Source: Desulfotignum sp. (GTDB taxonomy: Bacteria > Desulfobacterota > Desulfobacteria > Desulfobacterales > Desulfobacteraceae). From it: a stretch of 44,475 nt of DNA. The stretch's first letter is position 1. Each line of letters starts with the position of its first letter. This document shows, in pieces, positions 7,307 through 43,933 of this stretch. The position numbers were made by a program, and so were the translations under genes. The notes below the pieces were generated by a model. It had not been told where the DNA came from and made no database searches. It was given only the letters and a program-made list of their open reading frames with translations. The stretch lies in the NCBI GenBank assembly GCA_011389555.1, contig JAABUD010000134.1, positions 1-44,475 of the forward strand, in the 5' to 3' direction.

Positions 7307-8031
7307 TCAGATTGCCCCCTGTTGAAGGTTCCTTTCAGTTTATAGCGAAACCCCGGTGAAATCATGGTACTGTAAGTGGCCACCCGATCAAAGGACCAGG
7401 TGCGCCGGGTCAGTCGCAGACAGGGTTCCGCCGCATCGATCTGCAGATATTTGAGCACATGGGCCGGGCATCGCACCGCCTCGATCCCGTGTTCCGCGGC
7501 CTGGACCGGGGCGGTCTCCAGCAGATAATCACTGGGGGTCGTCCGGGTATAATCCTGGGCCAGATACGCCGGGGCCACGGCCGGGTTGATATGCCGTTCG
7601 GAATACTGAACCCCCACTCCCCGGTCCCTGTGCAGCAGAATGGAATGAAACACCTTGTCTCCGGGCACCAGGCCCAATCGGGCGGCAATGTCCATATCTG
7701 CACACTCTTCCACCAGGAGCAGCACCTCACAGGAATGAACCCCGCCCCAGTCTGCAATTTCTCTGGCAATGCTTTTGATTTCCAGTAAGGCCGCATCGGG
7801 TTTCGGACGGGCCACAAACGTGCCCACCCCCTGTATCCGGACAATACGCCCTTCTTCGGTCAACTCCTTGAGGGCCCGGTTGGCGGTCATCCGGGAGGTG
7901 GCAAACGCTTCGGACAATTGCGCTTCCGAAGGTACCCGGTCATCCGGCTTCAGGTGTCCGGCATCCATTTCCCGGATCAGGTGCTGCTTGATCTGTTCAT
8001 ACAACGCCAGAGGGCGTGTCGATGTTCCCAC
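7303..8031 (-). CDS. hutC: GntR/HutC-family histidine utilisation repressor
   Basis: This 242-residue regulator has an N-terminal winged helix of the GntR type (about residues 8-75, with PSEAQLSEAFATSRMTANRAL) and a C-terminal UTRA ligand-binding domain. HutC represses hut genes and is released by urocanate. The start is GTG at 8031, with AAGG 7 nt upstream. It is transcribed before hutH and overlaps it by 4 bp, so repressor and lyase are co-expressed. A matching operator lies in the divergent spacer at 8119-8134. Confidence 0.9.
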   Translation of the reverse strand: MGTSTRPLALYEQIKQHLIREMDAGHLKPDDRVPSEAQLSEAFATSRMTANRALKELTEEGRIVRIQGVGTFVARPKPDAALLEIKSIAREIADWGGVHSCEVLLLVEECADMDIAARLGLVPGDKVFHSILLHRDRGVGVQYSERHINPAVAPAYLAQDYTRTTPSDYLLETAPVQAAEHGIEAVRCPAHVLKYLQIDAAEPCLRLTRRTWSFDRVATYSTMISPGFRYKLKGTFNRGQSE

Positions 8032-24647: not shown

Positions 24648-26462
24648 ATGAGCCTTTGGCAACTGCATACCCAATGCCGGAAAGGGCTGGTGCTTGCGGG
24701 GATCATGATCTGTGTCTTTCTGTTTTGTGCGGGTTTTCTGGAAACCGTCACGGCATCGGTCCCCAGACAGGAATACCTGGCTGCGGATGCTGCGTTCAAA
24801 AAACTGCGCCATTCAGCGGTCAAACGCCAGAAAGTCTCGGAATGGCTGCACTGCATTCATCTTTACGAGGCCATATACAAAACCCATCCCCAGAGCACCT
24901 GGGCCCCGGCCGGCATGTACCGGGCAGCGGAGCTCTACCTGCAACTGTTTACCCTTTCCAATGATACCGTTTTCCGAACCCGGGCCGTTGACCTGCTGGT
25001 GCGAATCCGGAACAAATACCGGTCTTCCGCGTATAATGAACGCGCGGCATCTCAGCTCAAATCGCTTTCAGAAAATCCGGACCCCAAAACCCACCCTCCC
25101 CGGCATATCCGTTCCAAAAAAGCGGAAACCCAAAAAGAACAGTTTTTCGAAATCACACCAGATTCCGGACCGGCAGATTCATCGGATCAGACGGCCCGTT
25201 TTGATCAGCAGACCACCCGGCTTGAGGCCATTTTGCAGGATTCATCCCCGGACACAAAAAAAAATCAGGATGTCCAGAAAAACGCCCCTGTTTCTGACAA
25301 AACCGGACCGGACGCCTATATCACGGATCTGCGGTTCTGGTCCAACCCGGAATACACCCGCATCGTCATCAACGCGGACCAGGACCGGTCATTTTCCCAT
25401 CATCTGCTCAAAAAAGATCCAGACCTGAACATCCAGTTCCAGCGTCTCTACGTGGACATTCCCCGGGCCCTTCTGGGAAAAGGGGTGGCAGAACACACGC
25501 CCATCAATGACGATTTGCTCAAGCAGGCCCGGGCCGGCCAGTATCTGCCCCATACCGTGCGGGTGGTGGTGGATATCAAATCCTTTGAAAATTATAAAAT
25601 ATTTTCCTTGAAAGACCCTTTCCGGATTGTCATCGATGTGTGGGGCAAAGGCAACGGCGCCGCAGATCCGGGCCAGGCATCTCAAACCGCGGCACAAACC
25701 GGCGAGTTATTGAAAAACAGCCCCACGACCACCGACAATCTCAAGTCCTCGGATATTGCCCGGCAGCTGGCTCTGGGCGTACATAAAATCGTGATCGATC
25801 CGGGTCACGGGGGCAGTGATCCCGGGGCACCGGGCTATGCCAAAGGGGTCTGGGAAAAAGAGATTGTGCTGAAACTGGCCCACAACCTGGCGGACAAACT
25901 TCGGGACCGGCTGCACTGTACCGTGATCCTCACCCGGGACAGGGATACAAAATTGACACTGGAAGAACGCACGGCCATTGCCAACACCCAGCGGGCCGAT
26001 CTGTTCATTTCCCTGCACACCAACGCGGCCCGCAATAAAAACCTGGCCGGAATCGAGACCTATCTTTTGAACCTGGCCACGGACGAACAGGCCATTGCCG
26101 TGGCTGCCAGAGAGAATGCCACATCCAAAAAAAATATTTCCGATCTGGAATTTATTTTGAGCGATTTAATGAAACACGCCAAAATCGGTGAATCCACCCG
26201 CCTGGCCAATGATGTTCATCAGTCTCTGGTTCAGGGAATGAAAAAAAAATATTCAAAAATAATTGACCTGGGCGTGAAACAGGCCCCGTTTTATGTGCTT
26301 TTGGGGGCGCGCATGCCTGCCATTCTCGTTGAAACCTCATTCATATCCAACAAACGGGAATGTGAACGGCTGCTGGATCCCGACTACCAGGACGCGCTGT
26401 GTGATGCCATCGCCACGGGGGTCCAGACATATGTGGATGCCACCAATCCCCGGCAATTATGA
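24648..26462 (+). CDS. N-acetylmuramoyl-L-alanine amidase with AMIN domain
   Basis: This 604-residue periplasmic enzyme removes stem peptides from peptidoglycan. Residues 15-37 form a signal or membrane-anchor helix. Residues 40-145 look like an alpha-helical repeat region with a tol-pal/TPR flavour. An AMIN domain spans about 225-330 (ITDLRFWSNPEYTRIVINAD), and Amidase_3 spans about 380-600 with HKIVIDPGHGG (zinc His), SLHTNAA (zinc His) and ILVETSFISN (catalytic Glu). It belongs to the AmiC group that acts in septum splitting. Confidence 0.92.
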   Translation: MSLWQLHTQCRKGLVLAGIMICVFLFCAGFLETVTASVPRQEYLAADAAFKKLRHSAVKRQKVSEWLHCIHLYEAIYKTHPQSTWAPAGMYRAAELYLQLFTLSNDTVFRTRAVDLLVRIRNKYRSSAYNERAASQLKSLSENPDPKTHPPRHIRSKKAETQKEQFFEITPDSGPADSSDQTARFDQQTTRLEAILQDSSPDTKKNQDVQKNAPVSDKTGPDAYITDLRFWSNPEYTRIVINADQDRSFSHHLLKKDPDLNIQFQRLYVDIPRALLGKGVAEHTPINDDLLKQARAGQYLPHTVRVVVDIKSFENYKIFSLKDPFRIVIDVWGKGNGAADPGQASQTAAQTGELLKNSPTTTDNLKSSDIARQLALGVHKIVIDPGHGGSDPGAPGYAKGVWEKEIVLKLAHNLADKLRDRLHCTVILTRDRDTKLTLEERTAIANTQRADLFISLHTNAARNKNLAGIETYLLNLATDEQAIAVAARENATSKKNISDLEFILSDLMKHAKIGESTRLANDVHQSLVQGMKKKYSKIIDLGVKQAPFYVLLGARMPAILVETSFISNKRECERLLDPDYQDALCDAIATGVQTYVDATNPRQL

Positions 26463-26509
26463 CCCATGAACCGAGACACCAACCGTCAGAAAAAAAAGGA
26501 GATACGATC

Positions 26510-27298
26510 ATGTCTTTTGAAACCATTTTATTTACATCAGAAAACCACATCGCCCTGATACAGTTCAACCGCCCCAGGGCGTTGAACGCATTGAACAATC
26601 AACTGTTCGACGAACTGGACCAGGCTCTGGACCAGGTGGCGGCCGACGGGGATCTCCGGGTGCTGGTTCTCACCGGGGCCGGAGAAAAAGCGTTTGTGGC
26701 GGGCGCGGACATTGTGGAACTGAGCCGCATGACCCCGCTCCAGGGCAAAAATTTTTCCAGAAAAGGGCAAAAGGTGTTTTCCAAAATCGAACACCTGCCC
26801 ATCCCGGCCATTGCCGCAGTCAACGGATATGCACTGGGCGGCGGGTCTGAAGCGGCCCTGGCCTGTGATTTCATCTATGCGTCTGAAAAAGCCGTGTTCG
26901 GGTTGCCGGAAATCACCCTGGGCCTGATACCGGGGTTCGGCGGCACCCAGCGCCTGGCGCGCCTGGTGGGAACCAACCGGGCCAGAGAAATGGTGTTTAC
27001 CGGCAAAAACATCACGGCCCAGCAGGCGTATGAATTCGGCATGGTCAACCAGGTCTGTGCGCCGGACCAGCTCATGGACACGGTGATGAAAACCGCCGGG
27101 CTTATCGCCTCCCGGGGCCGGGCATCGTTGCGGGCTGCCAAGGAAGTGATTCTCAACGGCGGCAATGTGGACCTGGAAACCGGGTGCCGGATTGAAAACG
27201 ATGCGTTCGGCCTGACCATGTCCAGTGAGGATGCAACAGAAGGTACCACCGCATTTCTTGAAAAGCGAAAACCTCAATTCAAAGGAACACTTGACTAA
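26510..27298 (+). CDS. Enoyl-CoA hydratase (crotonase)
   Basis: This 262-residue crotonase-fold enzyme hydrates trans-2-enoyl-CoA. Oxyanion-hole segments are [15 protein letters not shown] near residue 58 and [10 protein letters not shown] near 104. The glutamates used for water addition are present in GGSEAAL and [18 protein letters not shown]. The ATG at 26510 is preceded by AAAAAAGGAG; an in-frame ATG at 26459 would overlap the amidase gene. It lies just ahead of paaK and the ACT gene, which suggests a shared role in CoA-thioester metabolism. Confidence 0.92.
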
Positions 27299-27319
27299 CC
27301 CGGCCCTGTTTCGGCCGGG
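27299..27319 (+). promoter_or_regulatory. Intercistronic hairpin before paaK
   Basis: CCCGGCC and GGCCGGG form a perfect 7-bp GC stem with a 7-nt loop, directly after the crotonase stop codon. No T-run follows, so partial termination or mRNA stabilisation is more likely than full termination. Confidence 0.5.
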
Positions 27320-27351
27320 CGGAAAGCATGTTTGCAAAAAAGGAACCCTTC

Positions 27352-28656
27352 ATGCCCATTTTTGATATTGATTTTGAAACCATGCCCAGGGAGGGCCTGG
27401 AAGCGATCCAGTTACGACGGTTACAGACAACCATTGCGCGTGTGTACGCCACGGTGCCGTTTTACAGGCAGCAATTTGACAACGCAAAAATCACTCCCGA
27501 AGACATCCAGTCTCTGGATGACCTGCAAAAAATCCCGTTCACCACCAAACAGGATTTACGGGACAACTATCCCTACGGCATGTTCGCGGTTCCCATGGAA
27601 CAGGTGGTGAGAATTCATGCCTCTTCGGGCACCACGGGCCAGCCCACGGTGGTGGGATATACCCGACGGGATGTGGACACCTGGGCCGATCTCATGGCCC
27701 GAAGCCTGGCTGCGGCCGGTGCCGGGGCCGGAGATATTATCCACAATGCGTTTGGTTATGGGTTGTTCACCGGTGGCCTGGGCGCCCACTATGGGGCGGA
27801 GCGGCTGGGGGCTTCGGTCATTCCGGTTTCCGGTGGGAACACCAGACGTCAGATCACGATTATGAAAGATTTCAAACCCACCATTTTATGCGGTACCCCG
27901 TCCTATATCCTTCACCTGGCGGAAGTGGCCGATGACATGGGGGTAAATTTCAAAAATCTGTTCTTCAAATCCGGAATTTTCGGCGCGGAACCCTGGACGG
28001 AACACATGCGCCAGGAACTGGAATCCAAACTTTATCTCAAGGCCGTGGATATTTATGGACTCAGTGAAATCATCGGACCGGGTGTGTCCATTGAATGCAA
28101 AGAGGAACAAAACGGGCTTCACGTGTTCGAGGATCATTTCATTGTGGAAGTCATCGACCCGGATACCGGTGAAGTCCTGCCCTGTGGAGAATCCGGAGAA
28201 CTGGTATTCACTTCTTTGACCAAAGAAGCGTTTCCCGTGATCCGGTACCGCACCCGGGACATTTCCTCTTTGAACCCGACCCCGTGTTCCTGCGGCCGCA
28301 CCTTTGTCCGCATGACCAAGCCGGCCGGCCGGACCGATGACATGCTGATCATCCGGGGGGTCAATGTGTTTCCGTCCCAGATCGAAAGCGTGCTCATGGA
28401 AAACCAGACGATCCGCCCCCATTACCAGCTGGAAGTGGATCGAAAAGGAAACCTGGATACCCTGACGGTGAATGTGGAAATCAATGAAGGGGTTTTCAGT
28501 GACGACATCAAAAGCCTTCAGGCCATGGAAAACAAGATCGCCATGGACATCAAGGAAACCTTAGGGGTTTCGGCCCGGGTGAGGCTGGTGGAGCCCAAAG
28601 CGATCCAGCGCAGCCAGGGAAAAGCGGTCCGTGTGATTGACAAACGAAATTTATAA
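27352..28656 (+). CDS. paaK: Phenylacetate-CoA ligase (AMP-forming)
   Basis: This 434-residue member of the ANL superfamily forms an acyl-adenylate and then the CoA thioester of phenylacetate or a related aryl acid. [16 protein letters not shown] is the P-loop near residue 88, YGLSE is the A5 motif near 234, YRTRD is near 300, and the C-terminal subdomain carries the [14 protein letters not shown] hinge. [15 protein letters not shown] near the start matches PaaK N-termini. I chose the ATG at 27352 because AAGGA lies 8 nt upstream; one at 27328 is also possible. In anaerobes PaaK often works downstream of aromatic 2-oxoacid oxidation. Confidence 0.93.
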
Positions 28657-28670
28657 CAGAGGAGATCCAC

Positions 28671-29102
28671 ATGCTTGCCGAACAGATATCCATATTCATC
28701 GAAAACAAGGAAGGCCGGCTGGCGGAAGTTACCGCCATTGTAAGGGATGCCGGGGTGAACATCCGGGCGTTGTCTCTGGCGGACACCACCGATTTCGGGG
28801 TGCTGCGTCTCATTGTCAATGACAACGAGGCCGCGGAACAGGCCCTGCGCAAGGAAGGATTCACCGTGGGGAGAACCAAGGTGCTGGCCGTGGAGGTGGC
28901 GGACGAGCCCGGGGGGCTGAACAAGGTGCTGGATCCGCTGTGGATGCAGAACGTCAATGTGGAATATATGTACGCCTTTGCCAATCCCCAGTGCAAAAAC
29001 GCCATCATGGTGTTCCGGTTCGACGACCATGAAAAGGCGCTCCAGATCTTAGGCGAGCATCAGATCAAAGTGATCACCGCCGAAGAGATCTCCAGCCTGT
29101 GA
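28671..29102 (+). CDS. Tandem ACT-domain protein paired with PaaK
   Basis: This 143-residue protein consists of two ACT domains (about 1-68 and 70-140) with EGRLAEVTAIVRDAGVNIRALSLAD in the first and EPGGLNKVLDPLWMQNVNVEYMYAF in the second. ACT domains bind amino acids as regulatory ligands. Pairs of PaaK and such ACT proteins are common in archaea and anaerobic bacteria, often beside indolepyruvate ferredoxin oxidoreductase, so it probably senses an aromatic amino acid. GAGGAGATCC precedes the ATG, 14 bp after paaK. Confidence 0.85.
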   Translation: MLAEQISIFIENKEGRLAEVTAIVRDAGVNIRALSLADTTDFGVLRLIVNDNEAAEQALRKEGFTVGRTKVLAVEVADEPGGLNKVLDPLWMQNVNVEYMYAFANPQCKNAIMVFRFDDHEKALQILGEHQIKVITAEEISSL

Positions 29103-34357: not shown

Positions 34358-35650
34358 TCAGTTGTATCCGAACATCCGGGGAAGAAACAGCACCACCTGG
34401 GGAAAATACGTCAAAAAGAACAGGACACTGATCTGGATGAGCAGAAACGGCCAGATGGCCCTGGACACATAGATGATATCCCGCTTGGCCAGGGAGCCGG
34501 TGATGAACAGACTCACCCCCATGGGCGGGGTACAGTATCCAATGGCCAGGTTCACGGTCATGATCAGCCCGAAATGCATGGGATCCACACCAAACGGACC
34601 CAACAGCGGCAGAAACACCGGTCCTAAAATCAATGTGGCGGAAATGATATCCATGAACATGCCGATGATCAGCAGCAGGATGTTCATGGCCATCAAAAAC
34701 ACAATGGGCGACTGGATGGAGGCCACCACCACCTCGGCCACCCGGTTGGGAATGTTTTCAAACGTCAGATACCGGCCGAAACAGGTGGCGGACGCCACGA
34801 TCAGCAGCAGGGTAGCCGAGGTGACCGCAGAACTGACCGTCACATCCTTGATATCGTTGAAACTCATGGACCGGTAGATAAAATACTCCACGAAAAGCGC
34901 ATATACCGATGCCACCACGGCAGCCTCATTGGCGGTGAACATCCCGGAGAATATCCCGCCGAAGATGATGACAATAAGCATCAGCGCCCAGAACCCTTCC
35001 TTGAAAATCGCCAGCAGATCTCCCAGTTTCGGGGCGGGCAGCCGTTTGATATCGGTCCGGTTCCGGTATTTGAGCCAGCTGTAGATGCACACACAGAAAA
35101 TAATCAGCATCCCGGGGATGAACCCGGTGATGAACAACCCTTCCAGCGACACATTGCTGATCATGGAATAAAATATCATGCTGATGCTGGGGGGGATGAT
35201 CACGCCCAGGTTCGGGGAGGTGGTCATGAGCCCCAGGGTATATTTTTCATCATACCCGTTTCTCATCAACGCCGGGATCATGAATCCGCCCAGGGCCACC
35301 ACCGTGGCCACCGTGGAACCGGAGATGGCCCCGAACAGCCCGCACCCGATGACTCCGGCCATGCCCAGCCCCCCCGGCAGCCAGCTCACCAGGGCATTGG
35401 CCAGGTTGATCAGTTTTTCCACGGTTTTTCCCTTGCTCATGACATTGCCGCAAAGGATAAAAAACAGCACCACCACCAGAGAAAAATTATCCAGACTCCT
35501 GAAAAGGGTCTGGATCAGCAGTCCCAGGGGCATGTCCAGAAAAAAAATCAACCCGATGGCAGCGGTGAAAAACAGACACAGAAAAACGGGAACATACGTA
35601 AACATGCACCCCAAAAGAACACAAAGAATAATCAGATCACTTGTCTGCAT
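34358..35650 (-). CDS. dctM: TRAP transporter large permease DctM
   Basis: This 430-residue DctM-family protein has about 12 hydrophobic helices. It shows family motifs such as FSLVVVLFFILCGNVMSKG, GCGLFGAISGSTVATVVALGGFMIPALMRNGYD, and TPPMGVSLFITGSLAK in the C-terminal half. It couples substrate movement to a Na+ or H+ gradient. It is the last gene of the operon that starts at 43561, downstream of dctQ by 15 bp. Confidence 0.93.
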   Translation of the reverse strand: MQTSDLIILCVLLGCMFTYVPVFLCLFFTAAIGLIFFLDMPLGLLIQTLFRSLDNFSLVVVLFFILCGNVMSKGKTVEKLINLANALVSWLPGGLGMAGVIGCGLFGAISGSTVATVVALGGFMIPALMRNGYDEKYTLGLMTTSPNLGVIIPPSISMIFYSMISNVSLEGLFITGFIPGMLIIFCVCIYSWLKYRNRTDIKRLPAPKLGDLLAIFKEGFWALMLIVIIFGGIFSGMFTANEAAVVASVYALFVEYFIYRSMSFNDIKDVTVSSAVTSATLLLIVASATCFGRYLTFENIPNRVAEVVVASIQSPIVFLMAMNILLLIIGMFMDIISATLILGPVFLPLLGPFGVDPMHFGLIMTVNLAIGYCTPPMGVSLFITGSLAKRDIIYVSRAIWPFLLIQISVLFFLTYFPQVVLFLPRMFGYN

Positions 35651-35665
35651 GAAAAACGGCCCTTT

Positions 35666-36148
35666 TTATTTTGATGTAAAATCCTGAACCATGACCTGGA
35701 TCGTCCTGAGAAACACCATCAAGCCTGTGACCGGCATGACGGCGTATACAATAACCAGGGGAATTTCCATGATGATGGTTTTCTGGTGGGTCAAAAACTG
35801 GAGATGGGTCATTTTATATCCATAATAGATCATCATTCCGGCAAACACCAGCATCAGGATATTGGTATAAAAGGTCAGGCCTTTTTTCAATTTGGGGAAA
35901 ATCTGGACCACGGCGTCAATCCGGATCATGGCCCGCTGCTTGACGGCCACGCTGGCGCCTATGAACGTGGAATAAATGATCACAATCCGGACCAGTTCTT
36001 CACTCCAGGCAAGGGTGTAATTGAATCCATACCGCAGCACCACATTGAAAAACAATGCGATCAACGCGGTGATGACAATAACGAAAAGAGTCCATTCTTC
36101 AAAATGGCTGGCCGCCTTATCCAGTTTCCTAAGTGTTTTCCCAAGCAT
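35666..36148 (-). CDS. dctQ: TRAP transporter small permease DctQ
   Basis: This 160-residue protein has four membrane helices and the DctQ-like LAWSEELVRIVIIYSTFIGASVAVKQRAMIRID segment, which is conserved in the family. It is followed by dctM. A terminator-like hairpin separates it from dctP upstream. Confidence 0.9.
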   Translation of the reverse strand: MLGKTLRKLDKAASHFEEWTLFVIVITALIALFFNVVLRYGFNYTLAWSEELVRIVIIYSTFIGASVAVKQRAMIRIDAVVQIFPKLKKGLTFYTNILMLVFAGMMIYYGYKMTHLQFLTHQKTIIMEIPLVIVYAVMPVTGLMVFLRTIQVMVQDFTSK

Positions 36149-36183
36149 ATATAATCAACCCCGGGCTCAATGATTGATAAAAG

Positions 36184-36217
36184 AGTCGGGCCTGCTCACA
36201 ACAAACAGACCCGACTT
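36184..36217 (-). terminator. Attenuator-like hairpin between dctP and dctQ
   Basis: On the minus strand AAGTCGGGTCTG pairs with CAGGCCCGACT around an 11-nt loop, followed by CTTTTATC. It lies 17 bp past dctP. Partial termination here would give more binding protein than permease, a common TRAP arrangement. Confidence 0.7.
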
Positions 36218-36233
36218 GTCCACTATCCGAATA

Positions 36234-37310
36234 TTATTCGCGTAAAAAATCCTGCACTTCTTTTAAGAAATTATCCGGTCTGTACGTATCGCCGGGATAC
36301 AGCCGGTTGATTTCTTCGGCATATTTTTCATAGGTTGCCTGGCTCTGATCTTTGAGAATTTCTATCTCCGCCTCCGGCAGCTGGATGAACTCCACCCCCT
36401 CTTCCTGGGCAGCCACTTTGTTTTCTTCTTCCCAGACAGCGGTTCTTTTCCGGTTTTCGGCTGCGACATCGTGTACCGTCTCAATAAAGGTCTGCCGCAA
36501 ATCATCGGGCAGGCTGGCCAGCCATGCCTTGTTGAAAATCCAGATAAACAGCCCCTGGGCATAGTTGATCTCGGTAAAATATTTGGCCACTTCAAATTTC
36601 TTGGTCAGGTAGCACACGGCCAGGGTGTGGTCCAGACCGGTGATGACGCCCTGTTTCAATGCCACCGGCACATCCGGCCAGGGCATGGACACGGGATTGA
36701 ATCCCCAGTTCCGATAAGACAGTTGATTCACTGCCGCTTCCGCCGTCCTGAATTTGATTTTTTTGGCATCTTCAATGGTTCTCACCGGTTCCGTGGTGGC
36801 CCAGCCATAATGGCCATAACCGGTGATATCCAGACCGGTGATACCCTGATGATCCATGGCGTTCATGAAATGGCCGAACAGTTTTTCATTGGAGGTGAAT
36901 TTGTCCAGCTTTTCAAAAGAGTCCACCAGAAACGGCAGGTTCACGATACCGAACCGGGGTCCTAAGTTGGTGGATGCCACTGAAGACACGCCCATACCCT
37001 GGATCGCCCCCATCTGGAGCATGTTCAGCACCTCCACTTCGCCTCCGAGAATGGAAAGGGGCTTGAAATCGATGTAGATCTGACCATTGGTACGCTTCCA
37101 CAGCTCATCCCGCATTTCAAACCCGGCATGTGTCCCCACCAGGGCCGGTGTGGACACATTGGAAACAATGCATTTGTACTTGGCCCCTTTGGGATCGAAA
37201 TCCGGTTTCCATTTGTCCAGAGACGAGGCCGTCGCCATGCCGGAACCGATGGTCATCAAGACAGCTACCGTCAAAACCAGCAGTAAACTTGAAAATGTGC
37301 GAAATTTCAT
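36234..37310 (-). CDS. dctP: TRAP transporter substrate-binding protein DctP
   Basis: This 358-residue periplasmic protein has a signal peptide (residues 1-28, MATASS cleavage region) and the TRAP solute-binding signature GGEVEVLNMLQMGAIQGMGVSS. The Arg in AKKIKFRTAEAAVNQL aligns with the substrate-carboxylate Arg of DctP proteins. It therefore captures a carboxylate, presumably the substrate of the operon (an amino, beta-amino or keto acid). AAGGAACAGACATC precedes the ATG. Confidence 0.93.
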   Translation of the reverse strand: MKFRTFSSLLLVLTVAVLMTIGSGMATASSLDKWKPDFDPKGAKYKCIVSNVSTPALVGTHAGFEMRDELWKRTNGQIYIDFKPLSILGGEVEVLNMLQMGAIQGMGVSSVASTNLGPRFGIVNLPFLVDSFEKLDKFTSNEKLFGHFMNAMDHQGITGLDITGYGHYGWATTEPVRTIEDAKKIKFRTAEAAVNQLSYRNWGFNPVSMPWPDVPVALKQGVITGLDHTLAVCYLTKKFEVAKYFTEINYAQGLFIWIFNKAWLASLPDDLRQTFIETVHDVAAENRKRTAVWEEENKVAAQEEGVEFIQLPEAEIEILKDQSQATYEKYAEEINRLYPGDTYRPDNFLKEVQDFLRE

Positions 37311-37370
37311 GATGTCTGTTCCTTTCCAAAAAAAGTTTAAAAATATAATGTTATCAGAGCAGCGGGCTCT

Positions 37371-37391
37371 TTACCTCCACACTGGTGGTAA
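37371..37391 (-). promoter_or_regulatory. Hairpins in the 98-bp gap between CoA ligase and dctP
   Basis: TTACCTCCA and TGGTGGTAA (37371-37391) form a stem with one mismatch and a 3-nt loop. A second small stem (AGAGC/GCTCT, about 37356-37370) follows on the minus strand. AT-rich sequence then runs to dctP. These may limit readthrough or mark a secondary start for dctP. Confidence 0.35.
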
Positions 37392-37408
37392 CCTGGGTCG
37401 GACGGAAC

Positions 37409-38989
37409 TTATGCCAGTTGTTTAAATGCCTCTTTACGGCCGGTGTATTTCTGCCTGAGCTGGGGTTTCATCAATTTCCCCGTGGGATTCCGGGGCACCT
37501 CATCAAACGTCACTTTTCGGGGTACTTTGTACAGGGACAGCTTGGTTTTGGCAAACGCAATCACCTCGTCTTCGGTCATCTGCCGCCCCTCCTTGAGCTG
37601 GACCACGGCCATCACGATCTCCACCAGCCGGTCGTCCGGATATCCGATACACGCCACATCATCGATGTCCGGATGATCCATGAGCGCATCCTCGATTTCC
37701 ACGGGATAGATATTTTCCCCGCCGCTGGTGATCATGTCTTTCATGCGGTCCACAATATAAAAATAACCGTCTTGGTCTCTTTTTAATAGATCTCCCGTGT
37801 AAAGCCAACCATTTTTTATGGTTTCTTCGGTTTTTTCAGGATTGGAATAATATTCATACATCATGCGGGGGGTTCTGAACACCAGTTCCCCCACTTCCCC
37901 GGCAGGCAGTTCTTCGCCTAAGGGGTCCACGATTTTGGCTTCCACACTGAACGTGGGTTTGCCGATGGACCCGGGCTTGGTCAGGACCGCCTCGGGATAC
38001 AGGTTGAATGTCCCGCCTCCCCCGCCTTCGGTGATACCATATATGTTGGACACTTTGCAGGGCAGTTTTTCCACCAGTTCCTTCATGATGTCAAAAGGCA
38101 CGGGCTGGGCCCCCACCTCCATATATTTCCAGGAGGACAGATCATATTCCGACATCTGAATGGTTCCCTTGCTCATCGCGTTGAGAATGGCAATGGCGAT
38201 GGGCACGACAAACAGCGTATCTGTACAGCCTTCATCTGAAATGGCCTCGATGATCCATTTGGGGTCCTTGAAATCCTTGATAATGGTACCGGCGGCACCC
38301 GTGGCATAGAACGGGGCCCACAGGAACAGGGTCCCGGAATGGTACAGGGGCAGGAAAATCAGGTAATTGTCATCTTTTTGCACAAAATAGGTCATGCCGT
38401 TGCCCACGGCCGTGCTGTTCAAAGAATAATGGGTATGAAGCACGGGTTTGGGCTTGCCCGTGGTGCCGGAGGTGAACATCATGGCCAGTCCGTGGTCCCG
38501 CTCCACCTCCACCATGGCATCCCCGGTATTTTCATAGTTCTTTATGGCCGCATAATCGGTCATGTCCGGCGGCACCTCTGTGCCCACACAGATAAAATGT
38601 TTGATGGTGGTCAACGTGTCTTGAATCGGCTGCACCACGCCCAGAAATTCCGATCCCAGGATGAACACATCCGGATTGCAGACCCCGGCGGCATACTGGA
38701 TATCCGGGCTTTCGAACCGGAAATTCAGCGGTACCACGATCGCGCCCAGGCGAATGATGGCATAATAGGTGACCAGCCACTCCAGGGAATTGTTCTGGAG
38801 ATGCATGACAAAATCCCCTTTTTTCACGCCGAGTTCCTTTGCCAGGTAATTGGCGGTGCGGTTGATTTCATCATTGAATTCCTGCCAGGTGAACGTCCGC
38901 CGGGACCCTTCTCCCGGTGATCTTTCGATCAGGCAAACCTTGTCAGGAATGTGTCTTGCATGGATTGAAGCATAACCTGAATAGTTCAA
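37409..38989 (-). CDS. AMP-forming acyl/aryl-CoA ligase
   Basis: This 526-residue ANL enzyme activates a carboxylic acid to its CoA thioester. MFTSGTTGKPKPVLHTH is the P-loop, YGITEGGGGG the A5 region, YTGDL the A7 motif, and PRNPTGKLMKPQL the C-terminal catalytic Lys region. A TTG start at 38989 is preceded by AAGGAGGGATCA, the best ribosome site; a GTG at 39010 lacks a good one and would add 7 residues. It follows the BKACE gene, so it may activate acetoacetate released by BKACE or the aryl acid of the pathway. Substrate is not defined by sequence. Confidence 0.9.
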   Translation of the reverse strand: MNYSGYASIHARHIPDKVCLIERSPGEGSRRTFTWQEFNDEINRTANYLAKELGVKKGDFVMHLQNNSLEWLVTYYAIIRLGAIVVPLNFRFESPDIQYAAGVCNPDVFILGSEFLGVVQPIQDTLTTIKHFICVGTEVPPDMTDYAAIKNYENTGDAMVEVERDHGLAMMFTSGTTGKPKPVLHTHYSLNSTAVGNGMTYFVQKDDNYLIFLPLYHSGTLFLWAPFYATGAAGTIIKDFKDPKWIIEAISDEGCTDTLFVVPIAIAILNAMSKGTIQMSEYDLSSWKYMEVGAQPVPFDIMKELVEKLPCKVSNIYGITEGGGGGTFNLYPEAVLTKPGSIGKPTFSVEAKIVDPLGEELPAGEVGELVFRTPRMMYEYYSNPEKTEETIKNGWLYTGDLLKRDQDGYFYIVDRMKDMITSGGENIYPVEIEDALMDHPDIDDVACIGYPDDRLVEIVMAVVQLKEGRQMTEDEVIAFAKTKLSLYKVPRKVTFDEVPRNPTGKLMKPQLRQKYTGRKEAFKQLA

Positions 38990-39025
38990 TGATCCCTCCT
39001 TGTATTTCACGTTTTATGTCATCCT

Positions 39026-39958
39026 CTAGAAATTGACTTTGTCCAGCCCCTTGAGCCCCAGAATATCTCTGGCCTCATCGGACGTGGCCGGAGCCAGGCT
39101 CATCTCCTTTGCCACGTTTTTGACCATCTTGACCTGGTCGGCGGATGATTTGGCCATGACCCCTTTGCCCGCGTAAATGGAATCCTCCAGCCCGATCCGG
39201 ACATTCTGGGCCCCCATGGCCATGGCTGTGGACGTGATGGGAATCTGGTACCGTCCCCCGGCTGCCACGGACCAGGTGAAGTTCTCTTCGCCCAGCACCT
39301 CTTTGGCTTCATCATAAATCAGCACCAGGTGTTTGACGGACGGGGTCATCCACCCCACCATGGGACCGAACACGAACTGCAGGTGCACGGGCAGTTTCAC
39401 CAGGTTTTCGTCCATGAGCCATTTCACATAAGACACATGCCCCAGTTCATAGATCTCGAATTCCGGTTTGGTATCGATTTCCAGAAAGGTTTTGGCGTAG
39501 ATCAGGTCGTCGTTGAAGGTGGGCCGGAACGTCACGTTCTTGCACAGTTCCAGATACTCTTTTTCCCAGTCATGTTTGAATTCCTTGAACCGGCTGGCGA
39601 TCTGGAAGATGCCGAAGTTGAAGGGGGCCGGATCAAAGGAACACATTTCCGGTTGCAGTTTTTTGATGGGGATCAGTTTTTCTTCCGTGGTCTGGTTCAT
39701 GCCGCCGCCCGTGGTGGGCAAAAGGATCAAGTTACACCGGGACTTGATTTTGGAATGCACTTCCAGAAACAGGTCCGGGTCGGACACGGGCAGGCCGTTT
39801 TCCGGGTTGCGCACATGAATATGGGCAATGGCGGCCCCGGCCTCCCAGGCCTTGACCGCATCCTCCACGATCTCATCCGGAGTGATGGGCAGGTATTCAC
39901 TCATGGTGGGAATGTGGACCGAGCCTGTGATCGCTGCGGTAATGATCAGTTTATCCAT
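39026..39958 (-). CDS. Beta-keto acid cleavage enzyme (BKACE, DUF849)
   Basis: This 310-residue TIM-barrel enzyme resembles Kce, which takes a beta-keto acid plus acetyl-CoA to acetoacetate plus a new acyl-CoA. Zinc ligands are seen in AAIAHIHVRNPENG (the two His), with a third His likely in the barrel, and the catalytic Glu lies in RIGLEDSIYAGKG. LLPTTGGGMNQTTEEKL matches the CoA-binding loop. AGGAGAAACAAT precedes the ATG. Together with the aminotransferase it gives the operon a beta-amino acid to acyl-CoA plus acetoacetate route. Confidence 0.92.
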   Translation of the reverse strand: MDKLIITAAITGSVHIPTMSEYLPITPDEIVEDAVKAWEAGAAIAHIHVRNPENGLPVSDPDLFLEVHSKIKSRCNLILLPTTGGGMNQTTEEKLIPIKKLQPEMCSFDPAPFNFGIFQIASRFKEFKHDWEKEYLELCKNVTFRPTFNDDLIYAKTFLEIDTKPEFEIYELGHVSYVKWLMDENLVKLPVHLQFVFGPMVGWMTPSVKHLVLIYDEAKEVLGEENFTWSVAAGGRYQIPITSTAMAMGAQNVRIGLEDSIYAGKGVMAKSSADQVKMVKNVAKEMSLAPATSDEARDILGLKGLDKVNF

Positions 39959-39970
39959 ATTGTTTCTCCT

Positions 39971-39998
39971 GTGGGTTGTGGGTTTTGGGTATTGGGTT
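39971..39998. repeat. Four heptamer repeats, GTGGGTT-type
   Basis: GTGGGTT, GTGGGTT, TTGGGTA and TTGGGTT lie head to tail in the gap between the BKACE and Lrp genes; the last unit overlaps the Lrp stop codon by 2 bp. The period of 7 bp matches the longer array at 41867-41915. Confidence 0.85.
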
Positions 39999-40479
39999 AC
40001 ACTCTGTATTCTTCCTCCATGTCGAGCAGAAACGTTTTTTTCACTTTGACGTTATCGATGATAAAAGACGATGTAATGATCTGGATCCCTTCTATCTGGG
40101 TCAATTTTTTGTTCATGAACTCCCCGTAGGTTTTGATGTCCCGGGCCGCCACCTTGAGAATAAAATCATCCGCTCCGGCAATCTGGTAGCATTCGATCAC
40201 CTCGTCCAGGGCCATGAATTTTTCCTTGATCAGGGCCACGGAGGACAGATTGCTCAAATTCAGACCGATTTTCACCATGGCAATGATGGAAAACCCGATT
40301 TTTTCGGGATTCACCACTGCGGTAAAATGGGTGATCACCCCTGCCAGTTCCAGGCGCTTGACCCGTTCCAGGGTGGCAGGGGCGGATATGCCCACGATTT
40401 TTGACAGCTTTGAATTGGTTATCTTCCCATTTTCCTGGAGCGTGTTCAAGATTTTTTTATCGATTCGGTCCAATACCAT
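39997..40479 (-). CDS. Lrp/AsnC-family regulator
   Basis: This 160-residue regulator has an N-terminal helix-turn-helix (DRIDKKILNTLQENGKITNSKLSKIVGISAPATLERVKRLE) and a C-terminal RAM/ligand-binding domain (FSIIAMVKIGLN through FIIDNVKVKK). The ATG at 40479 follows GGAGAAA at 7 nt; an upstream TTG is a weaker start. Lrp proteins bind amino acids and AT-rich palindromes. Being inside the operon it likely auto-controls it, sensing the amino or beta-amino acid. Confidence 0.9.
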   Translation of the reverse strand: MVLDRIDKKILNTLQENGKITNSKLSKIVGISAPATLERVKRLELAGVITHFTAVVNPEKIGFSIIAMVKIGLNLSNLSSVALIKEKFMALDEVIECYQIAGADDFILKVAARDIKTYGEFMNKKLTQIEGIQIITSSFIIDNVKVKKTFLLDMEEEYRV

Positions 40480-40498
40480 TCGGGCTTTCTCCAATCAA

Positions 40499-41836
40499 TT
40501 ATACAAGCAAATGGGTATATTTTTCCTGGATCAAAGGCAACAGTTCCTTCAACGTATCATCCATTTTACCTACGAGCATATCCATTTCATCATCGGTAAT
40601 CTTTGTGGACAGAATGAACAACCCCCGGGGGATATTGAAGATCCGTTTGTTGAGCAGCGACAGGTGCATCAGGGTGTGCAGCTCCTCTTCCGAATCCAGT
40701 ACATCCGCGGCATGAACCGTGGGCCGGTTCACGAAATGAAGATTGAGCAGGGACCCGATCTGGTTGGACTGGATGTTCAACCCGTTGTCGGCAATGCTTG
40801 CCAGCAGCCCTTTCTGGAACCGGTCTCCTTTGGCATTGATCCCGGAGATGGCTTTTTCGTCATATTTAATCATGGTGGCAAACCCGGCCTGCATCACGGT
40901 TTCATACCCGTTGAAGGTTCCCGAATGATACAGCGGTTTTTCCGTGTTTTCATGGCAGTAGATGTTCATGAACTCGGCCTTTCCCCCCAGCACCCCGATG
41001 GGCAGGCCTCCGCCCACCACCTTGCCCACGGTGGTCAGGTCCGGAATCACCTTGTACAGGTTCTGACACCCGCCGATGTTCACCCGGAAGGAAAAGATCT
41101 CGTCAAAGATCAGGAGCACGCCATGGGCCTGAGTCACTTTCCGGATCCGCTGGAGCAGGTCCTCTTCAGGCAGGACCACACCGCCGGCCCCTAGAAACGG
41201 CTCCATGATCACCGCTGCCAGGTCGGACGCGTTTTCCTTCACCGCTTTTTCCGCGGCATCCGGGTCATTGAACGGCACCTCCATCATGTCCGCGGTCATG
41301 CCCGCCGGAATCCCGGCCGTGATCACGTTTTTCTTGGTGGAGGCAGCCACACAGTCATGGGTGCCGTGGAACCCGCCGGTCATCTTCAGGATCTTGTCCT
41401 TTCCGGTGATGGCCCGGGCCGTGCGCAGGGCAAACATGGTGGCCTCCGTGCCGGAGTTGAGAAACCGCACCTTGTCAAACCCCGGCACCCGGTCGCACAG
41501 CAGCTTTGCCAGCTGGTACTGGCTGTCCGTGGGGGTGGAATACTGGGAACCCCGCTCGATGCCCGCCTGCACCGCCGCCACCACATCCGGGTCCCCGTGT
41601 CCGTGCACCAGGGCCCCATAGGCATTGGTGACATCCAGCAGTTCATGGCCCTCATGGGTGTATACATGGGCTCCTTTGCCATAGTCGATGTGAAGGGGCC
41701 AGGGCTTGAAATAACTCAGGCTCCTTGTGGCCCCGCCAGGGATATAGTTGACCAGGCGCTGGTGCCGCTCTCTGGAAGCGGGATAGGTTTCCCGGTACTC
41801 ATCAACGATTTTCGCTGCAACAGGATGCGCTGACAT
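40499..41836 (-). CDS. Class III aminotransferase, beta-amino acid type
   Basis: This 445-residue PLP enzyme is in the glutamate-1-semialdehyde aminomutase-like branch. The PLP lysine is K272 (DLTTVGKVVGGG) and the PLP-ring Asp is D245 (IFDE). Two arginines, R38 in GGATRSLSYF and R404 in NIPRGLFIL, sit where the Variovorax beta-phenylalanine aminotransferase has its substrate-carboxylate arginines. Segments such as VRFLNSGTEA, YHSGTFNGY and IGSLLNLHFV also match that enzyme from memory. So a beta-amino acid plus 2-oxoglutarate to beta-keto acid reaction is favoured; ordinary GSA aminomutase (HemL) is unlikely in this catabolic operon. GGGGGAGGAATT precedes the ATG. Confidence 0.85.
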   Translation of the reverse strand: MSAHPVAAKIVDEYRETYPASRERHQRLVNYIPGGATRSLSYFKPWPLHIDYGKGAHVYTHEGHELLDVTNAYGALVHGHGDPDVVAAVQAGIERGSQYSTPTDSQYQLAKLLCDRVPGFDKVRFLNSGTEATMFALRTARAITGKDKILKMTGGFHGTHDCVAASTKKNVITAGIPAGMTADMMEVPFNDPDAAEKAVKENASDLAAVIMEPFLGAGGVVLPEEDLLQRIRKVTQAHGVLLIFDEIFSFRVNIGGCQNLYKVIPDLTTVGKVVGGGLPIGVLGGKAEFMNIYCHENTEKPLYHSGTFNGYETVMQAGFATMIKYDEKAISGINAKGDRFQKGLLASIADNGLNIQSNQIGSLLNLHFVNRPTVHAADVLDSEEELHTLMHLSLLNKRIFNIPRGLFILSTKITDDEMDMLVGKMDDTLKELLPLIQEKYTHLLV

Positions 41837-41866
41837 AATTCCTCCCCCAGTATGAAAGTGTTACGT

Positions 41867-41915
41867 GTTAAGTTTTAAGTTTTAAGTGTTAAGTTTTAAG
41901 TGTTAAGTGTTAAGT
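41867..41915. repeat. Seven heptamer repeats, KTTAAGT
   Basis: Seven perfect-phase units of GTTAAGT or TTTAAGT run from 41867 to 41915, then decay (TTTAGTGTTACG). They fill the 102-bp gap between the MIO enzyme and the aminotransferase. Function unknown. Confidence 0.92.
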
Positions 41916-41938
41916 TTAGTGTTACGCTAAAAGCCAGC

Positions 41939-43561
41939 TTACTCTTTTTTATGAACAATGAGCAGTTCCCCCAGGGCATCTTCCACTTTTTTGACGAACT
42001 CGCCGGATTCTATTCTGGCTTTGAGTTCTTCCATATCATCGATGTATACTTTGTCCTTGTCCATGTAGCCCAGGGTTTCCCGCACCGCGTCATACATGAT
42101 TTTGCCGGCCGGACTCAGTTTGTCAATGCCCCGCAGGTCGGCTGCCTGGGCCGCGCACAGCAGTTCAAAGGACAGGATATGGTTGGTGTTCTCCACGATT
42201 TTTCGTGCTTTTCTGCCCGCAATCAGGCCGAAACTGACGATATCCTGGAAATCCGCCGTGGAGGTGATGGACTGGATGGAGGCCGGCACGGCCAGGGTCC
42301 GGTTTTCCGCCACCAGCGAGGTGGTCATGAACTGGCCGCCCATCAGTCCCATGCGGACCCCGGTGTCTTCCTTGCAAAGGAACGGCGGCAGCCCCGTGCT
42401 GTTGGAGGGATCCAGGAAACGGTCGATCCGCCGGTCGGACACCACCCCCAGGTTGACCATGGAAATACCCAGGCAGTCCATGACAAAGGAGATGGGCTGG
42501 CCGTGGAAATGGCCGTTATGAATGAATGTATCGAATTCGGTGAAGATCAAGGGATTGTCATTGCTGGAGTTCAGCTCGCGCAGCAGCACCTCGTGGGCAT
42601 GGTTGACCGCCTCTTTGGTGGGGCCCACGAACTGGGGGGTGCACCGGATGGAATAGGCGTCTTCCACGGGAATGTCCGCCACGGAAATGCCTTCATGTTT
42701 CTGAAGCACGGTCTGGAGTTTCAATGACAGTTCCTGCTCATCAATGGCCATATCCGATCCGGTCAACAGTTTGGTGAGATTCATGGCCGTGGCATACTGG
42801 CCGGGATGATATTTCTGCTCATGGACCCGGACATCAAAGGGATTGATCCGGCCCATCAGGGTTTCAATGGCAAACGCCGCAATGATGTCCGAATTTTTCA
42901 AGGTATTGGTGGCCTCGGTGATCACGGTGCAGGCCAGTCCCACCATACCGGAGGTGCCGTTGATCAGCGACAGCCCCTCTTTGGCGTTCAGGTACATCAG
43001 TTCCACCCCGGCCGCATCCATGGCTGCTTTGCCGGGCATGACCTCTCCTTTGTATCTGGCTTTCCATTCGCCAAACCCCACGGCGGCGATGCACCCCAGG
43101 GGCCCTAAGTCCCCGCTGGTACCCAGAGAGCCTTTCCGGGGAACCAGGGGAAACACCTGCTTGTTGATCATGTCCAGGTAAATTTTCAGATTTTTCTCCT
43201 TGATACCCGAATACCCCCGGCACAGAGAGTTGGCCCGGGCGATCATGAAGATGCGCACCAGTTCGTCTTCAAAGGGTTCACCCACCTGGGTGGTGATGCT
43301 TCTCACCAGATTTTTCTGAAAATCGTTGTCCCGCTCCTTGGGCAGCAGATGGTCCACCAGCCCCCCGCAGCTGGTATTCACCCCGTAAATGCAGCGCTCC
43401 TCGTTGGCCCAGGTATCCACCAGCTTGCGGCAGTCCCGGATTTTAGGCCAGTTGTCCTCCTTGACTTCCACCTGCATGGACAGGTCGTGACCTGCCTGCA
43501 TCAGTTCCTCGATGGTCAAGGTGTACCCGTCCAGAATAAGGCGATTGTCTTTGATCGGCAT
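41939..43561 (-). CDS. MIO-dependent aromatic aminomutase/ammonia-lyase, AdmH-like
   Basis: This 540-residue MIO enzyme is unlike hutH in the window. The MIO triad is Thr148-Ser149-Gly150 (GSLGTSGDLGPL), as in Pantoea phenylalanine aminomutase AdmH. Catalytic Tyr59 lies in IYGVNTSCGG, with Asn201 in LINGTSGMVG and Tyr303/Arg306 in DAYSIRCTP. Q439-D440 (DFQDIVSFG) replaces the HAL Glu, and SITT at 88-91 replaces the His-specific SHAA. Many stretches (ELNSSNDNPLI, HNGHFHGQ, LPPFLC, RMGLMGGQFMT) match AdmH as I recall it. It is therefore probably an alpha-to-beta aminomutase or lyase for a non-histidine, likely aromatic, amino acid. GGAGGACGTT precedes the ATG. It is first in the operon. Confidence 0.85.
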   Translation of the reverse strand: MPIKDNRLILDGYTLTIEELMQAGHDLSMQVEVKEDNWPKIRDCRKLVDTWANEERCIYGVNTSCGGLVDHLLPKERDNDFQKNLVRSITTQVGEPFEDELVRIFMIARANSLCRGYSGIKEKNLKIYLDMINKQVFPLVPRKGSLGTSGDLGPLGCIAAVGFGEWKARYKGEVMPGKAAMDAAGVELMYLNAKEGLSLINGTSGMVGLACTVITEATNTLKNSDIIAAFAIETLMGRINPFDVRVHEQKYHPGQYATAMNLTKLLTGSDMAIDEQELSLKLQTVLQKHEGISVADIPVEDAYSIRCTPQFVGPTKEAVNHAHEVLLRELNSSNDNPLIFTEFDTFIHNGHFHGQPISFVMDCLGISMVNLGVVSDRRIDRFLDPSNSTGLPPFLCKEDTGVRMGLMGGQFMTTSLVAENRTLAVPASIQSITSTADFQDIVSFGLIAGRKARKIVENTNHILSFELLCAAQAADLRGIDKLSPAGKIMYDAVRETLGYMDKDKVYIDDMEELKARIESGEFVKKVEDALGELLIVHKKE

Positions 43562-43661
43562 AACGTCCTCCTAAAGAATTATATGGTTGGCTGTGATGGT
43601 TATCTACAGGGAAATGTGTTCAGTACCGGATCCATCCATTTTCAGGCTTTCCCTGATTGAA

Positions 43662-43690
43662 ACCTAACCAGATCCCTGATTCATTGTCAA
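43662..43690 (-). promoter_or_regulatory. Promoter of the beta-amino acid operon
   Basis: On the minus strand TTGACA (43690-43685) and TTAGGT (43667-43662) are separated by 17 bp, about 100 bp before the MIO gene. The -10 is weak, as expected for an activated or regulated promoter. The rest of the gap 43562-43933 is AT-rich and I see no gene in it. Confidence 0.5.
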
Positions 43691-43743
43691 GGAATAATTT
43701 GAATTTTATAAGGAATTTTTTTGACTTAATAATATATTATTCC
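43691..43743. promoter_or_regulatory. AT-rich palindromes upstream of the operon, candidate Lrp site
   Basis: AATAATATATTATT (43728-43741) is a perfect 14-bp palindrome. GGAATAAT (43691-43698) and ATTATTCC (43736-43743) form a wider inverted pair. They lie just upstream of the predicted -35 box, where an Lrp/AsnC protein could activate. The link to the operon's Lrp gene is inference. Confidence 0.4.
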
Positions 43744-43933
43744 AAATCACCTTCATTATTTATTCGTTTTTTAGTTTTTTTATTGTGTATGCCTTATTTT
43801 TATCAAAACACCGCTTCCTTTTACAACATGACTCGAATGGATGGGCCTTTCCTGATCTTTACCTTGAATTTATAAAAAAAATAACGTAAGGAATATTGAC
43901 AAAGCCTTTCACCGCAGATAAGGAGAATGACAC

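Follow-up and report, generated by a model that had tools for sequence, protein, structure and literature searches.

Which compound is degraded by an operon that joins a 4-methylideneimidazole-5-one (MIO) enzyme, an aminotransferase and a beta-keto acid cleavage enzyme (BKACE), and by what route? The question is raised by eight genes in a 44,475-nucleotide stretch of Desulfotignum sp. DNA (contig JAABUD010000134.1), which at its full length is referred to here as the window. We consider it fairly likely that the operon serves growth on L-phenylalanine via beta-phenylalanine, benzoylacetate and benzoyl-CoA. The underlying chemical chain from aminomutase through aminotransferase to BKACE had been put forward in an earlier note on this DNA, and it gained support from the conservation of the gene set, the pocket residues of the MIO enzyme, the co-occurrence with the ring-degradation protein BamA, and the likeness of the uptake and ligase genes to those of a phenyl-acid locus, all of it genomic evidence. 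The linkage of the core genes to BamA in one genome and the conservation of beta-transaminase arginines and BKACE catalytic residues likewise favor phenylalanine. Each catalytic step, its stereochemistry, the direction of flux, and what the ligase and the regulator act on are what we infer from these observations.

The operon and its proposed route

All eight open reading frames (ORFs) are encoded on the minus strand and run from position 43561 down to 34358, with intergenic gaps of 4 to 102 bases. In order of transcription, they are as follows:

41939..43561 (-), AdmH-like MIO enzyme, 540 aa; PF00221 Lyase_aromatic, 518.5 bits; proposed L-phenylalanine 2,3-aminomutase forming (S)-beta-phenylalanine
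40499..41836 (-), class III aminotransferase, 445 aa; PF00202 Aminotran_3, 178.6 bits; proposed beta-phenylalanine:2-oxoglutarate aminotransferase forming benzoylacetate
39997..40494 (-), Lrp/AsnC-family regulator, 165 aa; PF01037 AsnC_trans_reg, 61.8 bits, plus a helix-turn-helix (HTH) match
39026..39958 (-), BKACE, 310 aa; PF05853, 284.6 bits; proposed to convert benzoylacetate and acetyl-CoA to benzoyl-CoA and acetoacetate
37409..39010 (-), AMP-forming acyl-CoA ligase, 533 aa; PF00501 AMP-binding, 259 bits; proposed aryl-acid:CoA ligase
36234..37310 (-), substrate-binding protein DctP of a tripartite ATP-independent periplasmic (TRAP) transporter, 358 aa; PF03480, 176.9 bits
35666..36148 (-), TRAP small permease DctQ, 160 aa; PF04290, 90.9 bits
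34358..35650 (-), TRAP large permease DctM, 430 aa; PF06808, 364.5 bits

The Pfam scores of all eight proteins far exceeded the gathering cut-offs, and the gene families, strand, place and order claimed in the earlier note were all confirmed by Pfam/NCBIfam matches and ORF coordinates. The source assembly (G000) comprises 317 contigs, with a completeness of 93.66% and a contamination of 5.48%. Upstream of the MIO gene (43562-43933), a TTGACA box and a GGAGG ahead of the ATG were recognized, both judged by eye.

In the proposed route, the MIO enzyme would convert L-phenylalanine to (S)-beta-phenylalanine by moving its amino group from C2 to C3, with no redox change, and the aminotransferase would hand this amino group to 2-oxoglutarate, leaving benzoylacetate (3-oxo-3-phenylpropanoate). 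BKACE would exchange a C2 unit with acetyl-CoA, yielding benzoyl-CoA, which would enter the anaerobic benzoyl-CoA pathway, and acetoacetate, which would be converted to two acetyl-CoA, probably via an AtoAD-type CoA-transferase and a thiolase encoded outside the operon. Direct hand-over of benzoylacetate to BKACE would limit its loss to acetophenone. DctPQM would bring in phenylalanine or related phenyl acids. The ligase would activate an aryl acid, which may be taken up from outside or be cinnamate that escapes from the MIO enzyme; the Lrp regulator would probably sense the substrate amino acid. The net conversion of phenylalanine to benzoyl-CoA and acetyl-CoA would keep two carbons that are lost in the anaerobic phenylalanine (Pad) pathway of denitrifiers.

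Enzymes, uptake system and substrate

The description of the MIO enzyme as AdmH-like was borne out. Its best solved structure was AdmH (3unv, 463.5 bits; runner-up, 351.8 bits), its best NCBIfam model was TIGR04475, and a 32-row tree placed it on a branch with AdmH (support, 100/100) that excluded the HutH-like rows; long branches make the placement of SgTAM and of the genome's third MIO gene in this tree unsure. The MIO-forming triad (T148-S149-G150) and the catalytic tyrosine (Y59) are present; the PDB row of AdmH gives the cyclized residue as X, which we take to be Thr in its own triad. At the AdmH positions that presumably line the pocket (L104, V108, L216, Y320, R323, M424, F428, F455 and Q456, numbered by chain count), the window enzyme has L, I, L, Y, R, M, F, F and Q. 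Ile89 thereby occupies the selector position where His/Tyr enzymes have His, together with Phe411, Phe438 and Gln439. At position 108, the window's HutH and SgTAM have His, and Glu is found at 456 in HutH and Tyr at 428 in SgTAM. Against the hutH equivalog, the MIO enzyme scored 463.1 bits, under the cut-off of 539.15, with the selector His and the Glu replaced by Ile and Gln. These AdmH-like pocket residues favor phenylalanine over tyrosine or histidine. Phenylalanine and tyrosine had both been named as possible substrates; the former was strengthened by the pocket residues and by BamA, and the latter became less likely. The gene shares 94 to 97% identity with its counterparts in records labelled Desulfotignum and in one record labelled Desulfobacteraceae.

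Other MIO genes were also encountered. A genuine hutH is encoded in the window at 5771-7306 (690.4 bits; cut-off, 539.15) and adjoins a gene for the repressor HutC, the pair spanning 5771-8031, so that histidine degradation is separately accounted for. The third MIO gene of the source genome (L089:8872-10503, on contig 253 of G000) encodes a protein with 35% identity to AdmH and a selector His, and it lies in a dense same-strand run of ORFs. In a 1.7-Mb genome (L098:7881-11591), an AdmH-like MIO gene (65% to AdmH) is flanked by genes for a TauD-family dioxygenase and a class I/II aminotransferase, a set that is possibly biosynthetic.

The aminotransferase had been called a beta-amino acid type, which is plausible by structure ranking: StoTA (6k8h) came out on top, two glutamate-1-semialdehyde aminomutases (GSAMs) took the next two places, and the beta-transaminases 6iz9, 2yku and 4ao9 followed in ranks four to six. 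In the alignment, it has the P-pocket arginine (StoTA R36), the second arginine of 6iz9 (PRG), to which we ascribe a carboxylate-binding role, and the lysine that binds pyridoxal 5'-phosphate (PLP). Both arginines are also aligned in L071, L074, L076, L081 and G411, and neither is found in the GSAM 3bs8. According to passages of PMC10589169, in which the 6k8h structure of StoTA is described, StoTA was tested on beta-phenylalanine, and R36 was suggested to bind the substrate carboxylate.

All five residues compared with BKACE15 (E171, R254, H49, H51 and E258) are conserved in the window BKACE; we take the Zn ligands of BKACE to be HxH plus Glu. The score of 211.8 bits against the Kce equivalog NF052387 is under the cut-off of 382. 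E171 is described as the catalytic base of BKACE15, tested by replacement, in part of PMC11961710, and benzoylacetate is among the BKACE substrates listed in Table 7 of PMC4922564.

The uptake system and the ligase resemble proteins encoded in a genome taken to be that of Desulfococcus multivorans (G161), with identities of 72% (ligase), 78% (DctP), 73% (DctQ) and 86% (DctM), and the G161 ligase compared adjoins the G161 TRAP genes (2.784-2.787 Mbp). At this locus, two histidine kinase genes precede TRAP, which is followed by two ligases and then by genes for a dehydratase component, its activase and a reductase; because this surrounding order fits, the ligase beside TRAP is probably FadD4. 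As reported in excerpts of PMC5109826, a D. multivorans TRAP system formed on phenylacetate/phenylpyruvate is 74 to 90% identical to the "supposedly phenylalanine/phenylacetate importing" TRAP of Desulfobacula toluolica Tol2. A single-contig genome taken to be Tol2 (G903) carries the complete operon at about 2,119,446-2,129,186, and its TRAP proteins are 90.2% (DctM), 75.2% (DctQ) and 79.7% (DctP) identical to those of G161. As these values match the published range, the operon TRAP is, judging from sequence identity, very probably DctM9Q9P9.

The earlier note had allowed the ligase either acetoacetate or an aryl acid. Its likeness to the ligase of the phenyl-acid locus makes it probably an aryl-acid ligase and speaks against acetoacetate. 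Among its solved relatives, the fatty-acyl ligase FadD13 (262 bits) ranks first, followed by others that include feruloyl-CoA synthetase (238 bits) and 4-coumarate ligases, and none of the 25 NCBIfam families listed out of 109 matched scored above its cut-off. The published phenylacetate/phenylpyruvate cluster of G161 (L108:6057-12244) encodes, next to IorAB-like genes, a 2-hydroxyacyl-CoA dehydratase component (HGD-D) with its activase, and also a reductase of the ApbA type. A route from phenyllactyl-CoA to cinnamoyl-CoA in this cluster could explain why a phenylglyoxylate-converting enzyme was not found.

Conservation, benzoyl-CoA degradation and alternative readings

Scanning contigs with the MIO protein alone, in a collection holding one genome per species, returned 44 loci. 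Downstream of the MIO gene, the same aminotransferase was found at 38 loci and one of another lineage at three (L074, L076 and L081), while the remaining three loci end at a contig edge; an aminotransferase of either lineage was thus present at 41/41 loci with room. Counted in the same manner, BKACE was present at 34/38 loci, Lrp at 32/38, the ligase at 29/33 and DctP at 22/29, and some loci without the window-type TRAP carry another DctM-like gene nearby (about 28 to 30% identity). The earlier note had named separation of these genes in other genomes as grounds for giving up the idea; the neighborhood search found the MIO enzyme, aminotransferase and BKACE jointly at 34 loci, so the gene order is not due to chance. 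Within the family, the aminotransferase (E up to 1e-100) was detected in 21 of the 23 MIO-positive and in 0/13 MIO-negative genomes tested, and in both exceptions (G402 and G406) a contig edge truncates the MIO gene itself.

Four loci are without BKACE, namely L071 (labelled Halieaceae), L074 (Proteobacteria), and L076 and L081 (Gammaproteobacteria), and no BKACE match was found anywhere in the stretches examined there. At L076 and L081, the MIO gene (66 to 67%) is accompanied by genes for an AMP-forming ligase, a thiolase and the other-lineage aminotransferase, which is about 33% identical to that of the window and 37 to 40% identical to StoTA and 6iz9; the two arginines are kept in both lineages. 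The ligase and the thiolase, found there with this different aminotransferase, could perform the same step as BKACE, a substitution that makes sense if the intermediate is a beta-keto acid. At L071, a weakly PaaK-like ligase (197 bits; cut-off, 700) follows Lrp. Besides G449, no carrier was found in 41 genomes of the order of G449, and one AdmH-like gene was found in 369 genomes of the class; G450, which has the MIO fragment L081, fell short of the threshold. Binning errors in metagenome-assembled genomes may affect the non-BKACE loci. We tentatively suggest, with slightly less confidence than would make it our expectation, that the beta-phenylalanine route is general and was assembled on at least two occasions around a single MIO clade: sulfate reducers would combine it with BKACE, gammaproteobacteria with a ligase, a thiolase and an other-lineage aminotransferase.

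The presence of the MIO gene (E up to 1e-150) was compared with that of BamA (TIGR03200 at E up to 1e-60, fragments counted) in 86 genomes of the family. MIO was found in 43 and BamA in 42; 36 genomes had both, 7 had MIO only, 6 had BamA only and 37 had neither. BamA was therefore present in 36/43 MIO-positive versus 6/43 MIO-negative genomes (Fisher p 6e-11, the genomes being treated as independent). By genus, it occurred in 9/9 MIO-bearing genera and 0/5 others, and within one genus (g253) in 2/2 MIO-positive versus 0/17 MIO-negative genomes. The window's own genome yielded a truncated BamA match, located where a contig ends (model positions 123-360), that scored 349.9 bits, short of the cut-off. 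In G400, one of the six BamA-only genomes, a contig begins inside the operon, at the end of the ligase gene, so its MIO gene is probably merely unassembled. In G411 (L084/L085, on the same contig as L075), bamA is followed on its own strand, about 3.8 kb on, by genes for the MIO enzyme, an EamA transporter, the aminotransferase and BKACE. This BamA scored 475.4 bits (cut-off, 464.45; model positions 2-302 of 360), a 6-hydroxycyclohexene-carbonyl-CoA dehydrogenase gene (TIGR03201, 482 bits; cut-off, 338.65) lies on its far side, and a DctM-like gene and two further ORFs stand between bamA and the MIO gene.

The proposed release of acetoacetate also bears on published observations. According to PMC5109826, D. 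toluolica Tol2 had elevated AtoAD on phenylalanine and phenylacetate, a role of AtoAD on phenylglyoxylate being suggested there, and D. multivorans was reported to be without atoAD. Acetoacetate made by BKACE would explain the rise on both substrates, and our guess is that Tol2 AtoAD consumes it, which would be simpler than the phenylglyoxylate role. In line with this, D. multivorans, reported without atoAD, is also a genome in which no AdmH-like MIO gene was found.

Several observations weigh against the phenylalanine route. The MIO enzyme is only 44% identical to AdmH, its 659.8 bits against TIGR04475 miss the equivalog cut-off of 800, and its sequence does not separate a lyase from a mutase. 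Identity of the aminotransferase to StoTA, 6iz9 and GSAM is in each case about 35%, and the second arginine is missing from StoTA itself. The only MIO match of D. multivorans (G161) is 38% identical, so the like TRAP and ligase at its phenylacetate/phenylpyruvate locus point to a phenyl substrate and not to this route. The genomes compared for BamA are related rather than independent. Seven of the 43 MIO-positive genomes were without BamA at the threshold, including the nominally complete G881 (96%), G880 (94%) and G429 (100%, but 7% contaminated and in 1270 contigs), and such near-complete genomes count against a strict dependence. Linkage was seen at one locus only, neither BamA nor the TIGR03201 dehydrogenase being found within the examined flanks of the other loci among the 44. 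BoxB, tried as an aerobic benzoyl-CoA marker of the non-BKACE carriers, was found in 2/4 genomes and also in 12/41 genomes from the order to which one of these four belongs, and it was set aside as non-discriminating. Furthermore, the earlier note had the operon proceed without phenylpyruvate, a claim that cannot be made because the window itself encodes a PaaK-like phenylacetate-CoA ligase, and a phenylacetate route may coexist. Published work on Tol2, as cited in the part of PMC5109826 considered here, postulated that IorAB acts on phenylpyruvate. The stretch around the PaaK-like gene (26459-29102) comprises an enoyl-CoA hydratase gene, the PaaK-like gene itself (633.4 bits; cut-off, 646.3) and a gene for a small protein, ACT-like by eye, that had no NCBIfam match at E 1e-20.

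MIO enzymes are frequently lyases, and the one described here could be a phenylalanine ammonia-lyase, with the ligase activating cinnamate for beta-oxidation and the aminotransferase and BKACE serving another beta-amino acid. The ligase's relatives, among them feruloyl-CoA synthetase and the 4-coumarate ligases behind FadD13, would suit such a role. However, L075/L084 retains the MIO enzyme, the aminotransferase and BKACE while a like ligase is missing from the following 7 kb, L076 and L081 have a ligase and a thiolase with neither a hydratase nor a dehydrogenase between the MIO enzyme and the aminotransferase, and an aminotransferase follows the MIO gene wherever there is room. We regard a lyase as unlikely. 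A substrate other than phenylalanine, with tyrosine leading to 4-hydroxybenzoyl-CoA or another aromatic amino acid taking its place, is likewise unlikely, if slightly more so: substrates vary among aromatic MIO enzymes and HcrA-like matches of 862 to 876 bits occur in 7 of the 23 MIO-positive genomes tested, but the TIGR03194 cut-off of 994.55 was reached in 0/23, G418 had no match at E 1e-60, the pocket has neither the His of Tyr/His enzymes nor the Glu of HutH, and BamA accompanies most MIO genes.

MIO aminomutases are reversible, and the operon has a dedicated uptake system; it might thus degrade imported aromatic beta-amino acids, in which case the MIO enzyme would form the alpha-amino acid, to be used for nitrogen or in protein synthesis. 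The aminotransferase and BKACE would then suffice, yet the MIO gene heads the operon, and the near relatives of the TRAP system are tied to phenylalanine, phenylacetate and phenylpyruvate in the portions of PMC5109826 consulted; we hold this explanation to be quite improbable. Still more improbable is a natural-product cluster like that of andrimid. AdmH, the nearest characterized enzyme, is biosynthetic, but no nonribosomal peptide synthetase or polyketide synthase is found among the eight genes, which instead encode BKACE, a CoA ligase and TRAP uptake, and ring-degradation genes are linked on one contig (G411). Degradation of phenylalanine via beta-phenylalanine and benzoyl-CoA is the reading that we retain.

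Comparison with known systems

To our knowledge, a beta-phenylalanine route for phenylalanine breakdown, such as the one suggested by this gene set of marine sulfate reducers, has been undescribed so far. No description was recognized in one open-access library, the scope of this survey, which leaves aside subscription papers including the 2013 Tol2 paper (Wohlbrand et al.), and the route is not described in the passages considered from PMC11887813, PMC4046663 and PMC13416013. Work that brings together aminomutases and BKACE concerns Fusobacterium nucleatum, work on phenylalanine aminomutase in connection with benzoyl-CoA concerns, to judge by titles, plant or natural-product biosynthesis, and work on a catabolic MIO aminomutase in anaerobes concerns beta-valine. 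If true, it would add a degradation route for a protein amino acid and give MIO aminomutases a role in primary catabolism. It would also provide an explanation, open to testing, of the conversion of phenylalanine to benzoyl-CoA in Desulfobacula and Desulfotignum and, with the MIO gene in half (43/86) of the family genomes, may matter in marine sediments.

The window enzyme shares its fold family, clade and pocket residues with AdmH, the (S)-beta-phenylalanine-forming aminomutase of Pantoea, but it stands in a catabolic-looking operon, apart from its modest identity to AdmH and its score under the TIGR04475 cut-off. In the anaerobic acetophenone pathway, carboxylation of acetophenone yields benzoylacetate, which is then processed by a benzoylacetate-CoA ligase and a thiolase. 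The fate of benzoylacetate is the same as that proposed for the L076/L081 variant, whereas its source differs.

The Pad pathway of denitrifiers starts and ends alike, leading from phenylalanine to benzoyl-CoA, but proceeds through phenylpyruvate, phenylacetyl-CoA, alpha-oxidation to phenylglyoxylate and decarboxylation, as outlined in parts of PMC9765128 and PMC5109826. No pad genes were named by Pfam or NCBIfam among the eight genes of the operon. In the sections used of PMC5109826, padB and padEFGHI are missing in D. multivorans and are said to have been shown not to be required in Tol2 either, and how D. multivorans gets from phenylglyoxylate to benzoyl-CoA is termed unclear. The transamination of beta-phenylalanine is common to the operon and to (S)-beta-phenylalanine degradation in Paraburkholderia, where the resulting 3-oxo-3-phenylpropanoate spontaneously decarboxylates to acetophenone; there, the beta-amino acid is supplied externally, and the part of PMC6150868 consulted gives no aminomutase or BKACE step for the (S) form.

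The closest known logic, as the earlier note had held, is still lysine fermentation, in which lysine aminomutases lead to a beta-keto acid that Kce (3-keto-5-aminohexanoate cleavage enzyme) combines with acetyl-CoA, as BKACE would in the operon, to give an acyl-CoA and acetoacetate. Lysine fermentation uses radical-SAM and B12 aminomutases, and a dehydrogenase where the operon has a transaminase. In contrast to it, the operon would act on an aromatic substrate, starting from a candidate aminomutase of the MIO type and ending in an acyl-CoA that feeds ring reduction.

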